Position numbers and translations under genes: made by a program | Notes under the pieces: generated by a model | What the model was told of the DNA's origin: nothing | The model's database searches: none | The model's input: only the letters and a program-made list of their open reading frames with translations | Shown here: positions 1,448-30,692 of the stretch, piece by piece | How the letters are laid out: each line of letters begins with the position of its first letter | Numbering within the stretch: position 1 is the first letter of the stretch | DNA from: Prevotella sp. | Lineage (GTDB): Bacteria > Bacteroidota > Bacteroidia > Bacteroidales > Bacteroidaceae | DNA length: 56,908 bases | Assembly: GCA_017467535.1 (NCBI GenBank) | Contig: JAFUST010000074.1 | Location: forward strand, 1 to 56,908 | Direction: 5' to 3'

Positions 1448-4400
1448 CAGTAGTTGCTCATGAGTGTCACTTGTACGGGCTTGATGGCGAAGGTGAAGTC
1501 GTAGTCCTGATAGGGCAGGCAGTACTCGCGGCGCGGCCATGCTCCCCAGGAGTTGACGCAGCCGAGGCCCATCTGGCGCTGCTGGATGTGCACATAGGTG
1601 TCGCCCGTGGGCACGAGGTCGCCGCTATGGTGTCCCCACTGCTTGTCCTTGTTGGGGCCGTCGTCCAGTTGGCTGGTCGAGTAGGGCAGGGCACTGGCTT
1701 CCATCGGTGCGTTGCTGTAGAACTCGAGGCCACGGCCCTCGCTGTCGAGCACGCGGAACCAGCGCACGTCGGTGTGGTTGCCCGACTCCTGCGGACGCAC
1801 GTAGGGGAAGTACTCATCGTCGACTTTCGACTCGTAGATGCCTACCAGTTCGCTGCTGTTGCGGTCGGAGTAGTTCTCCACAGGGCCGCGGCCGCGATAC
1901 TGAATGAAGTCGAACGGTGCCGGCATCTGCAGGGCCATGCCGTAGCGGAAGAGGTTGCTCACCTCGGCTCCCTTCTCGGTGCCCAGTTGCTGGCGGACGA
2001 TCACCTGGCCGTCGGTCGCGAGGGTGTAGGTGAGGGTGAGCGTGGCCTTCTGGGCGGGCATCTCCAGCACGGCCACGATGGTGTTGTCGCTGACGGAGCA
2101 CTGCTTCACCTTCATCTGCGGGTCGCGCCACGTGGCAAAGCGGCGCTGCAGGCCTGCACCGTAGTCGTTGTCGGTCGGTGCACGCCAGAACTCGGGCGTG
2201 ATGCTCTCGCGGAAGGACAGCATCTCGCGCCCGCCGACGGTCAGATAGTCGATGAGTCCGCTGCGCTTGCCCACGTAGAGGTCGGTGCCTGCGGCCGAGA
2301 GGCGCACGTAGGTGTTGGTTTCCTCTTTCTCCACCTGAGCCGTCTCAGTCGAAAGGGCGGGATACTGGTAGGGCTGCACGAAGATCTGCTCGCGAGCCAC
2401 CCACTGGCTCTTGCTCAGCAGGGGTTGGTCTTCGGCGGGCGTCACCCAGAAGATGACATATACCTCGTCGCCCGGCTGGTGCTGCAGCACGTCGGCCAGT
2501 TCATCGCGCAGGGCATCGATGACGATGGTCTTGCGCTGCTGTGGGGCAATGCCCTGCAGGCTCACCGTCATGTCTTTGCCGGTAGAGGCGTAGATGCGTT
2601 CGCTGGTGAAGCCGCCGATGTGCCAGTGGAGCACCATATCGTCGAGCGAGCGGAAGAAGTTCTCGTTGTACACCTCGATGCGTCCGTCCTTCACGCCCTT
2701 GTCCGCTATCCAGATGTTCTGATAGTAGTACTGCACCTCGTGTGCATGAGGGTTCAGCCGGCGGTCGGGGGCGATGATGCCGTTGCAGTTGAAGTTGTAG
2801 TCGCTGGCGGGATACTTGCCGTAGTCGCCGCCATAGGTGAAGATCTCACGACCCGTGACGGGGCTCTTGTCGCGCAGGCCCTGGTCGACGAAGTCCCAGA
2901 TGTAGCCACCCTGATACTTGGGGTACTTACGAATGAGGTCCCAGTACTCCCGGAAGCCGCCCATCGAGTTGCCCATAGCGTGAGCGTACTCGCACTGGAT
3001 GAGCGGACGGGGATTGTCGCCCTGGGCATACTGCTCGCAGCGACGATAGTCGGCATACATGGGGCAGAAGATGTCGGTCTTGCGGTTCTCGCCTGCCTGC
3101 TCATACTGGCAGGGGCGCGTCGCGTCGGTGGCCTTCACCCAGTCGTAGCATTTCTCGAAGTTGGGGCCATAGCCGGCCTCGTTGCCCAGCGACCAGACGA
3201 TGATGGAGGGGTGGTTGCGGAAGGAGAGCACGTTGCCCTGATTGCGCTCCAGGTGCATCTGCTCGAAGTCGGCACGCTTGGCCAACGTGCGGTCGCCGTA
3301 ACCCATACCGTGACTCTCCAGATTGGCCTCAGCCGTCAGGTAGATGCCGTATTCATCGCAGAGGTCGTACCAGCGCGGATCGTCGGGATAGTGGCAGGTG
3401 CGCACGGCGTTGATGTTGAGTTCCTTCATGATCTTGATGTCCTGAATCATGCGCTCGACGGAGACGATGTAGCCGCCGTCGGGATCGAGTTCGTGGCGGT
3501 CGGCACCCTTTATCAAGATCGGCTGACCATTGATCAGCAGTTGTCCGCCCTTGATCTCGATGTGGCGGAAGCCCACACGCTGGCGGATGACCTCCAGCAC
3601 CTGGTCACCCTTCTTCAAGGTGATCATCACGTTGTAGAGATTAGGCACTTCTGCCGACCAAGGCTTCACGAGAAGTGAAGAGTGAAGAGTGAAGAGTGAA
3701 GCGCTCGACCTCAGGTCGCTTACTACCGAAGGGACGTAAGAATTTGCTGCCGCCGTAAGGGTGGCTACTTGCTGGCCTTTGGCATCCGTGAGCACGGCCT
3801 CGGGGGTGGTTCCCTTCGGAGCCTTGATGTTCACGTTGAGAATGCCCTTGCCGTCGATGTAATCCTGTGTGATGACCAGATCCTCGATGTGTGCCTTCGG
3901 ACGGGCGTAGAGATACACCTCGCGGGCAATGCCCGTGAAGCGCCAGAAGTCCTGATCCTCCAGATAGGAGCCGTCGCACCAGCGCATCACCTGCATGGCG
4001 ATGAGGTTCTGACCCTTCTTCAGGTACTTGGTGATGTTGAACTCGGCAGCCACCTTCGAGTCCTCGCTATAGCCAACGAACTTGCCGTTGACCCATACGC
4101 TCAGGTTGCTCGTGGCAGAGCCAACGTGGAAATAGACCTCCTGACCGTTCCAGTCGGCTGGCAAATCGAAGGTGCGGCGGTAGGAGCCGGTGTAGTTGTT
4201 GGTTTCGTCGATATAGGGCGGATTGCTGTCGAAGGTCGTTGCCCACGAATAGCCCGTGTTCTTGTAGATCTTGTCGCCGTAGCCCTCTATCTCGAAGAGG
4301 CCGGGCACAGGGAAGTCCACCCACTGGGAGTCGTCGTACTTCGGCAGGAAGAAGTCCTTGGGCGCCTGGTTGTGGTCTTTCACGAAGCAGAAGCGCCACT

Positions 4401-4602
4401 TGCCCTCCATCGACAGGTAGCGTGCAGGTTTCGACTTGTCGCCCGACTGTGCCTTCTGACTGTTTTCGAAGGCAAAGAAGTCGGCGCGGCGTGCCTCACG
4501 GTTCACTTGGTTGACGGCTGGGTTCTTCCACGCGGGAGTGGTGTCGGCCAGTGCCGTCATAGCGGTCAGCAGCGTGACCGAAAGTAACAGGTTTCTTAGC
4601 AT
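1447..4602 (-). CDS. lacZ: Secreted GH2 beta-galactosidase
   Basis: A 1051-residue glycoside hydrolase family 2 enzyme of the large LacZ type (sugar-binding, Ig-like, TIM-barrel, Ig-like and beta-sandwich domains). It hydrolyses terminal beta-galactosides. The catalytic acid/base lies in GNEAGYGPN (about residue 473) and the nucleophile in [12 protein letters not shown] (about 537). An N-terminal signal peptide ([15 protein letters not shown]) sends it to the periplasm or surface, as for many Bacteroidetes polysaccharide enzymes. Residues about 283-311, between two barrel-proximal beta domains, are encoded by a short-repeat insertion that also occurs between genes elsewhere in this window. 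It lies 29 bases after the DUF2461 gene and overlaps the phytase-like gene by one base. No SusC/SusD pair is nearby. Confidence 0.95.
3671..3753 (-). repeat. In-frame composite repeat inside lacZ
   Basis: On the + strand, units of AGTGAAG and AGTGAAGAGTGAAG run from 3671 to 3701. They are followed by the near-palindrome CGCTCGACCTCAGGTCGCTT (3702-3721) and then by AATTTGCTGCCGCC (3740-3753). The last module matches the TTTGCTACCGC end found with the repeats at 25438, 29664 (inverted) and 47795. The palindrome recurs at 55942-55961. On the coding strand it reads as the short segment SLFTLHSSL and flanking residues without breaking the frame. Confidence 0.85.
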
Positions 4603-4631
4603 ATTGGTATGTTTTTTTAGAGTTTTTCTCT

Positions 4632-29352: not shown

Positions 29353-29375
29353 TTTTTTGAAATCGGATTCGCGAT

Positions 29376-30692
29376 TCAGGGGATGAGCAGCGACGAGTCG
29401 CCGTAACTCAGGAAGCGGAAGTCGTGGCTCAGGGCGTAGTCGTAGATGGTGCGCCAGTCGCCCTTGACGAAGGCACTCACCAGCAGCAGCAGCGTGGATT
29501 GCGGCTGGTGGAAATTGGTGACCAGCATCCTTACGATCTTGTATTCATACCCCGGTGCAATGATGATTTGAGTACTTGAATGCAGCGCACTCAACCCATT
29601 ACTATCCAGCCAGTTAAGCAGCGCCCTAATGGCCTCCTCCGCAGAAGGAGTAGCAGAAGGAGTAGCGGTAGCAAATTCTTCACTCTTCACTCTTAACTCT
29701 TCACTTTCAACTCTTAACTCTTCACTTTCAACTCTTAACTCTTCACTTAAATACGGTTCCCACTGACTGACGTGCAACTCCTGCTCGCTGACAGCAGGAT
29801 TGCGCAGCACTTTCAGCCCCATGTAGTAGAGGCTCTCCAGCGTGCGTACGCTGGTGGTGCCCACGGCGATGGCGCGGCACTGGTGGCGCAGCAGTTTCTC
29901 CAGCGTCTGGCGGTGCACGCAGATGTACTCCGTGTGCATCTCGTGGTCGGCTATCTCCTCGCTCTTCACGGGCTTGAACGTGCCTGCACCCACGTGCAGC
30001 GTCACCTCCTCGCGGTCTATGCCGCGCTCGTCCAGGGCCTGCAGCACCTGCGGCGTGAAGTGGAGTCCAGCCGTCGGGGCGGCCACGCTGCCCTTTATCT
30101 TCGAGTAGACCGTCTGATAGGTGGTCTTGTCGCTCTCCTGCGTGGCGCGGTTCAGGTAGGGCGGAATGGGCAGTTCGCCCACCGACTCGAGAATCTCGGC
30201 AAACGACACGCTCGGGTTGTCCCACTCGAAGTCCACCCAGTGGCTCGTGCCCACCATCTGGCGGCGCGTGGCGGTCATGGTCAGTGTCACATCGCCAATC
30301 GTCAACTGTCTCGACAGCGTGCCCTCCTTCCATTTCTTCAGGTTGCCCACCATGCAGAGCCACGAGCAGCGGCCGCGCGTCTGAAACATCAGTTCGTAGT
30401 CGGCAGGCCGGGCAGGCTCCAGCAGAAACACCTCGATCAGGGCACCCGTCTGCTTGTGGAAGTGCAGGCGCGCCTGTATCACCTTCGTGTTGTTGAACAC
30501 CATCAGGGCTCCCTGCGGCAGGTGCTGCGGCAGGTTCAGAAAGACGTCTTCCCCCACCCTGCCGTGCTCGTAGACGAGCAGTTTCGAGTGGTCGCGCTGC
30601 GCCAGCGGAAACTTGGCGATGCGCTCGTCAGGCAGGGGGTAGTTATAGTCGCTTATGCGGATGTGCTTGGTTTCCATTTCAGTTTCATACAT
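29376..30692 (-). CDS. queA: S-adenosylmethionine:tRNA ribosyltransferase-isomerase
   Basis: 438 residues; transfers and isomerises the ribosyl moiety of SAM onto preQ1-tRNA to form epoxyqueuosine. Family motifs are clear: DYNYPLPDERIAKFPLAQRD near the start, MVFNNTKVIQARL, GSVAAPTAGLHFT and LHVGAGTFKPVK, then YEYKIVRMLVTNFHQPQSTL near the end. Typical QueA is about 350 residues. The excess lies at residues about 314-351, where a short-repeat insertion encodes SEELRVE units in frame, followed by ATATPSATPSAEEA. The start at 30692 overlaps the PAP2 stop by eight bases; an internal ATG at 30677 is an alternative. It is the last gene of the long ftsY-bat run. Confidence 0.93.
   Translation of the reverse strand: MYETEMETKHIRISDYNYPLPDERIAKFPLAQRDHSKLLVYEHGRVGEDVFLNLPQHLPQGALMVFNNTKVIQARLHFHKQTGALIEVFLLEPARPADYELMFQTRGRCSWLCMVGNLKKWKEGTLSRQLTIGDVTLTMTATRRQMVGTSHWVDFEWDNPSVSFAEILESVGELPIPPYLNRATQESDKTTYQTVYSKIKGSVAAPTAGLHFTPQVLQALDERGIDREEVTLHVGAGTFKPVKSEEIADHEMHTEYICVHRQTLEKLLRHQCRAIAVGTTSVRTLESLYYMGLKVLRNPAVSEQELHVSQWEPYLSEELRVESEELRVESEELRVKSEEFATATPSATPSAEEAIRALLNWLDSNGLSALHSSTQIIIAPGYEYKIVRMLVTNFHQPQSTLLLLVSAFVKGDWRTIYDYALSHDFRFLSYGDSSLLIP
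29664..29749 (-). repeat. In-frame ACTCTTCACT repeat array inside queA
   Basis: On the + strand GCGGTAGCAAA (29664-29674, the inverse of TTTGCTACCGC) is followed by about 75 bases of CTCTTCACT/CTCTTAA/CTTTCAA units up to 29749. The coding strand reads repeated SEELRVE. The frame stays open through the whole array. Confidence 0.9.

Follow-up and report, generated by a model that had tools for sequence, protein, structure and literature searches.

The DNA analysed here, a window of 56,908 nucleotides (bases 1-56908 of contig C39), belongs to the metagenome-assembled genome (MAG) G000, which comprises 2,391,378 bases in 108 contigs, is 79% complete and was assigned to Prevotella through its nearest named relatives. 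Short tandem arrays lie along this window, both between genes and inside three conserved enzyme genes, lacZ, a gltA fusion and queA. An earlier sequence-only reading had taken these arrays for dispersed units inserted in frame in the enzymes. Every repeat tract that it had listed is confirmed, at each genic and intergenic place and always with a period of 7, 14 or 21 (those marked TRF by Tandem Repeats Finder), and the reading frame is open across all three genic arrays, with Pfam or PDB matches resuming on both sides. The tracts are as follows:

1..118, + strand: intergenic heptad array ATTGAAC/ATTGAAT, 16.9 copies, at the contig start (TRF)
3674..3701, + strand (lacZ itself on the - strand): AGTGAAG array inside lacZ (TRF)
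3702..3740, + strand: core of the lacZ unit, CGCTCGACCTCAGGTCGCTTACTACCGAAGGGACGTAAG
3741..3753, + strand: anchor of the lacZ unit, AATTTGCTGCCGC, which includes TTTGCTGCCGC at 3743-3753
17045..17077, + strand: (CATTGAA)n left arm in the inter-domain linker of the gltA fusion (TRF)
17113..17149, + strand: inverted right arm (AATGTTC)n in the same linker, without anchor (TRF, linker parse)
25408..25448, + strand: intergenic AGTTAAT/AGTTTAT array with anchor AGTTTGCTACCGC
27309..27357, + strand: intergenic AATGTTC array, the array proper at 27326-27357 (TRF)
29665..29748, - strand: in-frame queA unit (SEELRVE...SEEFATA), with a 21-bp higher-order unit repeated 3.4 times, array at 29677-29748 and anchor AATTTGCTACCGC at 29665-29675
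47760..47809, + strand: 50-bp block of heptads and anchor between hisG and hisD (array 47764-47805)

Heptad arrays inside conserved enzymes

Across 311,610 bp of G000, TRF reports 28 arrays of period 7, all of at least three copies, against one of period 6, seven of period 8 and five of period 9. Ten dinucleotide-preserving shuffles of the same sequence yield no arrays of periods 4-9, and we reject chance repeats on this comparison (28 period-7 arrays against none). Period 7 is also the commonest in other genomes of the genus, with 37 arrays next to 31 of period 12, in a set of 713,736 bp whose stretches were partly picked for arrays (12 of the 20 in one batch came from genomes with heptads in queA).

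The lacZ unit lies inside PF00703 (237-346), and the barrel domain then follows in frame; an alignment of LacZ to 6sd0 has no clear break at the unit. Among the 18 of 30 LacZ loci that could be parsed, an array is found in the G000 gene only, and locus L291, from a separate comparison, carries one at the same site. In the gltA fusion, the two arrays take up the linker that joins PF10418 (211-247) to PF14691 (351-458). At 86 amino acids, the parsed linker stretch is within the 74-87 of 25 relatives (26 of 30 loci parsed, G000 included), so that sequence has been replaced here rather than lengthened. The pair has no anchor and is linked to the other units through its word alone; in other genomes, the same linker holds AGTGAAG heptads with ATTTGCTGCCGCC (L196) or other heptads (L203).

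QueA was aligned to 1yy3, the Bacillus subtilis enzyme, with query residues 288 to 371 matching chain residues 267 to 279. Orthologues without the array are already about 404-413 amino acids long (match spans of L061-L063, L070, L153, and L154), so most of this insert is older than the array. The suggestion that the array makes the protein much longer thus holds for 27 amino acids relative to the QueA of Prevotella sp. RGIG4836 (G060), but not for the remainder of the insert; the corresponding 81 nt comprise the array, the anchor and an adjoining 12-bp repeat. In an AlphaFold model with a mean predicted local distance difference test (pLDDT) score of 76.9, the array region is modelled with low confidence (block means of 51, 43, and 58 over residues 321-350).

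The same QueA loop was compared among 110 loci, of which 99 were parsed (G000 included) and 11 were not, some species being present in both genome sets. A repeat score of at least 9 is reached by 23 linkers, and the best lag is 7, 14, or 21 in 18 of them (17 of 22 after removal of a duplicate, L066 and L148 being one identical linker) and 15 in five. As a control, equal-length neighbouring stretches of queA reach this score in 3 cases (lags 15 and 22) and 10 cases (all lag 3). The words in the loop vary among species (CGAGGTG, AGTGAAG, GAAATGA, CTCACTC, GAAGATG, and others), and most parsed orthologues have no array; the different words encode unrelated peptides at this site, which speaks against a protein-level origin. 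Three linkers (L119, L134, and L150) contain in-frame arrays of period 15, a multiple of three (EVKSE repeats in L119).

A search for the units in whole genomes, as the sequence-only reading had proposed, returned the anchor at further loci, intergenic as well as genic. Seven more open reading frames (ORFs), four in G000 and three in genome G062, contain in-frame units (names follow Pfam, the finer names being our own):

L001, G000: ADP-forming CoA ligase-like ORF, Pfam matches on both sides or across
L002, G000: GH67 ORF, Pfam matches on both sides or across
L004, G000: GH35 ORF, unit in sense orientation, Pfam match upstream only
L014, G000: IspG ORF, antisense, Pfam matches on both sides or across
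L296, G062: TopB ORF, antisense, Pfam matches on both sides or across
L297, G062: GT2 ORF, antisense, Pfam matches on both sides or across
L305, G062: CbiE-like ORF, antisense, Pfam match upstream only

Aligned to 1gqi, the GH67 protein shows one break at the unit, where query residues 493 to 536 correspond to chain residues 488 to 497, and another at a second, ANYSLLTINSSL-type tract; the IspG protein has other extra sequence relative to 3noy as well, and the unit is not cleanly isolated there.

Anatomy, dispersal and orientation of the units

A typical unit consists of a heptad array (AGTGAAG, AGTTAAT, AGTTTAT, or AGTGAAT) followed directly by the anchor A[AG]TTTGCT[AG]CCGC. The anchor form TTTGCTACCGC has 22 exact copies in the 2.39-Mb genome against 2 for its reversed control, and 38 against 2 are found when the variable base is allowed to be R; together with the empty shuffles, these counts bear out the view that the units are dispersed and not chance repeats. 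The shared end modules that had been taken to tie the enzyme copies to the intergenic ones do join lacZ, queA, and intergenic units, with the qualifications that the lacZ anchor is one base off TTTGCTACCGC and that the gltA pair has none. The anchor is immediately preceded by a heptad array in 21 of 24 classed copies from G000 loci, 44 of 52 in G062, 15 of 19 in the named strain Xylanibacter caecicola PCHR (G075), and 5 of 10 in G060; the remaining copies have no clear array, and some are plain coding matches.

In its full form, the unit is a hairpin, composed of array, anchor, a core of 13-114 bases, inverted anchor, and inverted array, and many units are two-armed. Allowing one mismatch per anchor, we count 6 such pairs at G000 loci, 6 in G062, and 8 in X. 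caecicola, and in all three genomes half units (array and anchor) are common alongside them. Half units are found in tandem as well (27 and 46 bp apart in G062). The arms of a unit resemble each other more than they resemble arms of other units, with match values of 0.92 versus 0.84 in X. caecicola (8 pairs, p 0.006), 0.80 versus 0.70 in G000 (6 pairs, p 0.03), and 0.84 versus 0.79 in G062 (6 pairs, p 0.07). The core of the lacZ unit recurs in G000 in near-identical form at L018 and, more altered, at L032. The words ATTGAAC and TGACAGA form arrays without the A[AG]TTTGCT[AG]CCGC anchor, the gltA pair among them. Another module, AGTACAAGCAGTAC, is preceded by AAGTGAT heptads in the window and by AGTGAAC heptads in L096.

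Among 249 genomes sampled in the genus (G000 included), TTTGCTRCCGC reaches at least 20 copies in 37 (maximum 85). The rest of the order was sampled with 197 genomes, none of which has more than 15 copies (reversed control, up to 19). Six of the 16 genomes behind the named loci are anchor-rich, with copies and reversed controls of 24 and 2 in G060, 77 and 1 in G061, 81 and 1 in G062, 79 and 5 in G065, 23 and 3 in G067, and 22 and 3 in X. caecicola. The repeats are a real dispersed family, patchy within one genus. Arrays or anchors lie at contig ends of G062 (such as C26:20, C144:19, and C86:8) and in the first 118 bases of the window; given such positions, copy numbers from MAGs are probably underestimates, and the heptad arrays may help to fragment assemblies.

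Other repeats were seen in and around the elements. The cores of X. caecicola (L316-L323) are AT-rich, and the CTATAGG- or TTATTAGTCC-like words that compose them give the element another type of repeat in its interior; a 20-base core following the anchor, CGAAGTTGGGAGCCCGGCAG, is common to L017 (G000) and L311 (G062), both at contig ends. Another unit type, CCTGACGGCTAATTGACAATTGA, at positions 6371 and 7653 of L109, has a different module ahead of AATTGAC heptads, and GC-rich heptads (TGGGTGT/CAACACC) lie inside ORFs of Prevotella G056 (L095 16604-16640 and 19641-19683; L100 1595-1665).

Position and orientation were classed on home-made gene calls (ORFs scored by codon use), each arm of a pair and each tandem copy within a gap being counted on its own. 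Among 74 intergenic arrays from loci of G000, G062, G075, and G060, 68 have a called left neighbour, and in 56 of these the neighbour is on the same strand, which places the array after that gene. By type of gap, 26 sense and 5 antisense arrays are co-directional, 23 convergent, and 4 divergent. The single genic units are antisense in lacZ and in the IspG, TopB, GT2, and CbiE-like ORFs, and sense in queA and the GH35 ORF. Seven being coprime to three, a pure heptad array is translated into one and the same heptapeptide in all three frames: AGTGAAG has a stop in every frame, while its complementary strand, CTTCACT, is open in every frame (LHSSLFT). Of 12 words tested, six are open on one strand, two on both, and four (AGTTAAG, AGTTAAT, AGTTTAT, and AATTAAG) have stops on both. 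This property of the frame can explain, without any function, much of the orientation pattern as well as the stop-free word changes of the sense copy in queA.

Orthologous sites in relatives

G060 is the nearest relative found by LacZ (92% identity) and by QueA (88% in the best segment); for the GltA fusion it stands at 92%, with four other genomes at 93%. Its comparison with the window also covers five tracts that had not been listed before:

25053..25082, + strand: intergenic CTGTCAT heptads, missing in G060 (TRF)
25202..25234, + strand: intergenic TGACAGATGACAGTTA repeats, with one 16-bp unit fewer in G060 (TRF)
25326..25346, + strand: intergenic CTGTCAT heptads, mostly common to G060 (TRF)
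29332..29352, + strand: ATGACAG heptads over the stop codon of the prmA-like ORF 28457-29335, common to G060 (TRF)
33957..34080, no strand assigned: AAGTGAT heptads, module AGTACAAGCAGTAC, and inverted TCACTTA array at a gene junction, mostly common to G060 (TRF)

Longer repeats of coding type also occur in the window, namely a CTG-rich tract at 34210-34315 and a 66-bp repeat (2.6 copies) at 55530-55703.

The clearest difference is at 47760-47809, where the 50-bp block between hisG and hisD (gene names by Pfam) is absent from G060 and the two genes overlap there by ATGA; no target duplication is seen at this empty site when G060 is compared with the window. The array and anchor at 25408-25448 are likewise missing from G060. 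As for the in-frame copies, this close relative lacks 81 nt in lacZ and another 81 nt in queA, which may reflect gain here or loss in G060; the gltA linker is replaced. The lacZ gene of G060 has neither the array nor the core and lacks most of the anchor, with GCAAAT, the end of the inverted anchor, retained at the junction; the queA gene of G060 has no anchor and retains about 28 nt of decayed heptads. The pair at 33957-34080 and some TGACAGA arrays are common to both genomes, and further units stand at matching places (L015/L332, L014/L328, and L016/L333 for G000 and G060). At 27309-27357, both genomes have an array, with the word AATGTTC here and AATTTTC/AATCTTC in G060, which is direct evidence of word turnover.

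Origin of the units

We consider it somewhat probable that these units are dispersed, non-autonomous, palindromic elements similar to REPINs, whose slippage-prone heptad arms are tolerated in frame. It is the dispersal, the matched inverted arms and the lack of duplication that lead to an element of this kind. Copies would insert at new sites, for the most part beyond gene 3' ends, leaving no visible target duplication; the heptad arms would then lengthen, shorten and change word through replication slippage and copying between arms. Copies of length 3n in open orientation, or free of stops, would survive in enzymes at loops or linkers that can accommodate the peptide without its having a function, and the stop-bearing orientation would accumulate after stop codons. 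Mobilisation would take place in trans, perhaps by a RAYT-like Y1 transposase. The single Y1 match in G000 is a 428-amino acid ORF, L043, for which the RAYT model is nearest; this protein (L043:685-1971, - strand) has an internal HGEV repeat, encoded by a 12-bp tandem repeat (1422-1488), and a long C-terminal part.

Several observations weigh against this account. L043 scores 34.6 bits on the RAYT model, where the cut-off is 80, its 3.2-kb locus has no heptads beside it, and Y1 matches do not clearly track the anchors (7 of 8 anchor-rich and 28 of 52 anchor-poor genomes, p 0.07, among 60 genomes). The hisG-hisD empty site comes from one relative. A CTTCACT array whose anchor is degenerate occupies the lacZ site in G062, and the queA site carries a decayed array and anchor in L115 and heptads with AATTTGCTGCCGC in L116, so G060 may have lost its lacZ and queA copies instead of their having been gained here. 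The frame argument is partial, given the four words with stops on both strands, AGTTAAT among them. The ATTGAAC and TGACAGA arrays, lacking the anchor, may be plain simple sequence repeats (SSRs), the gltA case looks like replacement, and the conserved anchor is internal to the unit, unlike in miniature inverted-repeat transposable elements (MITEs).

The most serious competitor is that polymerase slippage created the arrays where they stand, as ordinary heptanucleotide microsatellites without any mobile unit, and that anchor and cores are hitchhikers spread by occasional recombination between arrays. Such an origin fits the dominance of period 7 among short arrays regardless of word, the different words at orthologous sites, and the over-representation of heptamers among bacterial SSRs reported in PMC4679880 and PMC4692102; it fits less well with a 50-bp block including an anchor where G060 has no array, with a nearly constant core and anchor at three loci (one of them altered), and with arms that are matched inverted repeats. 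We hold it to be unlikely on balance, and give it more weight than we otherwise would because the lacZ and queA copies may have been lost in G060 rather than gained here. Far less probable is a repeat-writing polymerase, telomerase-like or DRT10-like, that makes heptads by reverse-transcribing a short RNA, its product being captured in the genome. Repeats that vary in number and close with a fixed anchor are what a templated product would show, and DRT10 is reported to make tandem-repeat DNA (PMC12632851), but with a unit of 9 nt, and the Prevotella genomes have many words each; moreover, no RVT_1 match was found in the 79% complete G000, and reverse transcriptases are not associated with the anchor (3 of 8 rich versus 19 of 52 poor genomes, incomplete MAGs among them, p 0.62).

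That the peptides are selected functional linkers, with the DNA repeats following from protein selection, would suit the sites themselves (a domain linker in the gltA fusion, a low-confidence loop in QueA, and a domain edge in LacZ). However, the same DNA unit also occurs between genes, different words give unrelated peptides at one QueA site, genes hold copies in both sense and antisense, and most parsed orthologues have no array, all of which makes this very improbable. An artefact of assembling metagenome bins might be suspected of a MAG contig that starts inside an array, with anchors near several contig ends, but is scarcely credible when units are present in the genome of a named strain, X. 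caecicola PCHR, and at matching places in G000 and G060.

Solo units and inverted pairs around a variable spacer, a preference for 3' ends, and a lack of target duplication are features of REP and REPIN sequences, and a GTAG-type foot stands beside the hairpin in REPIN/RAYT systems. The Prevotella units likewise show singlets, inverted pairs, a 3'-end preference, and no duplication, in a genome with a RAYT-like gene. GTAG is present in the inverted anchor GCGGTAGCAAA, but within the stem, and a GCAG form of this anchor is common too. The units differ from REP/REPIN sequences with their RAYT transposase (compare PMC3116915, PMC6006769, and PMC3733652) in that their arms are slippage-prone heptad arrays and copies lie in frame in genes, and the link to RAYT is putative. 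Heptanucleotide direct repeats are themselves known, from TAACTGA arrays in Beggiatoaceae, cyanobacteria, and five Bacteroidetes to cyanobacterial short tandemly repeated repetitive (STRR) sequences and GGGAATC in Xanthomonas, many of them near gene starts or ends and often readable on one strand (PMC4679880 and PMC4692102). What distinguishes the Prevotella units from these is that they carry an anchor and inverted arms, share cores, use several words per genome, and have copies in enzyme loops. The earlier comparison with Rickettsia palindromic elements (RPEs), palindromic dispersed units that sit in frame in many genes (PMC10969869), is apt as an analogy of behaviour, the Prevotella units being palindromic, dispersed, intergenic, and in frame in many genes; we claim no RPE membership by sequence, since the body of the unit is a 7-bp tandem array with a short anchor, its words differ between loci and species, and the host belongs to another phylum. 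REPINs and heptanucleotide repeats are nearer structural parallels than RPEs. BrickBuilt, a MITE of Porphyromonas gingivalis described in PMC4596501, also places tandem repeats in a dispersed element with inverted ends in a Bacteroidales host; its repeats are of 23 bp, its terminal inverted repeats resemble those of the IS5 family, and it is always intergenic. A MITE identity was rejected for the Prevotella units, whose outer ends are variable heptads and whose empty site is clean and without duplication. The belief that no equivalent had been described in Bacteroidales stands in so far as no such unit in Prevotella is described among the open-access papers listed by our searches, but it must be tempered by the published TAACTGA arrays of five Bacteroidetes.

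The units are thus kin to known heptanucleotide repeats and to REPIN- and RPE-like elements, and what sets them apart is the presence of in-frame copies in many enzymes. A bolder and, in our judgement, rather doubtful possibility is that Prevotella has an active system that writes or copies heptad units into its genome. With a period coprime to three, a strand free of stops would be open in every frame, and housekeeping enzymes would have a standing supply of new linker peptides whatever the frame, each species renewing the word at these same sites. Outside Rickettsia, the units would clearly exemplify dispersed repeats that occupy conserved enzymes in frame, and they would do so in a genus dominant in gut and rumen. 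A single enzyme loop with different words in different species would offer natural replicates of how mobile or slippage-born DNA turns into protein, and the unexplained preference of bacteria for heptamers would gain a system with anchors, empty sites, and close relatives.

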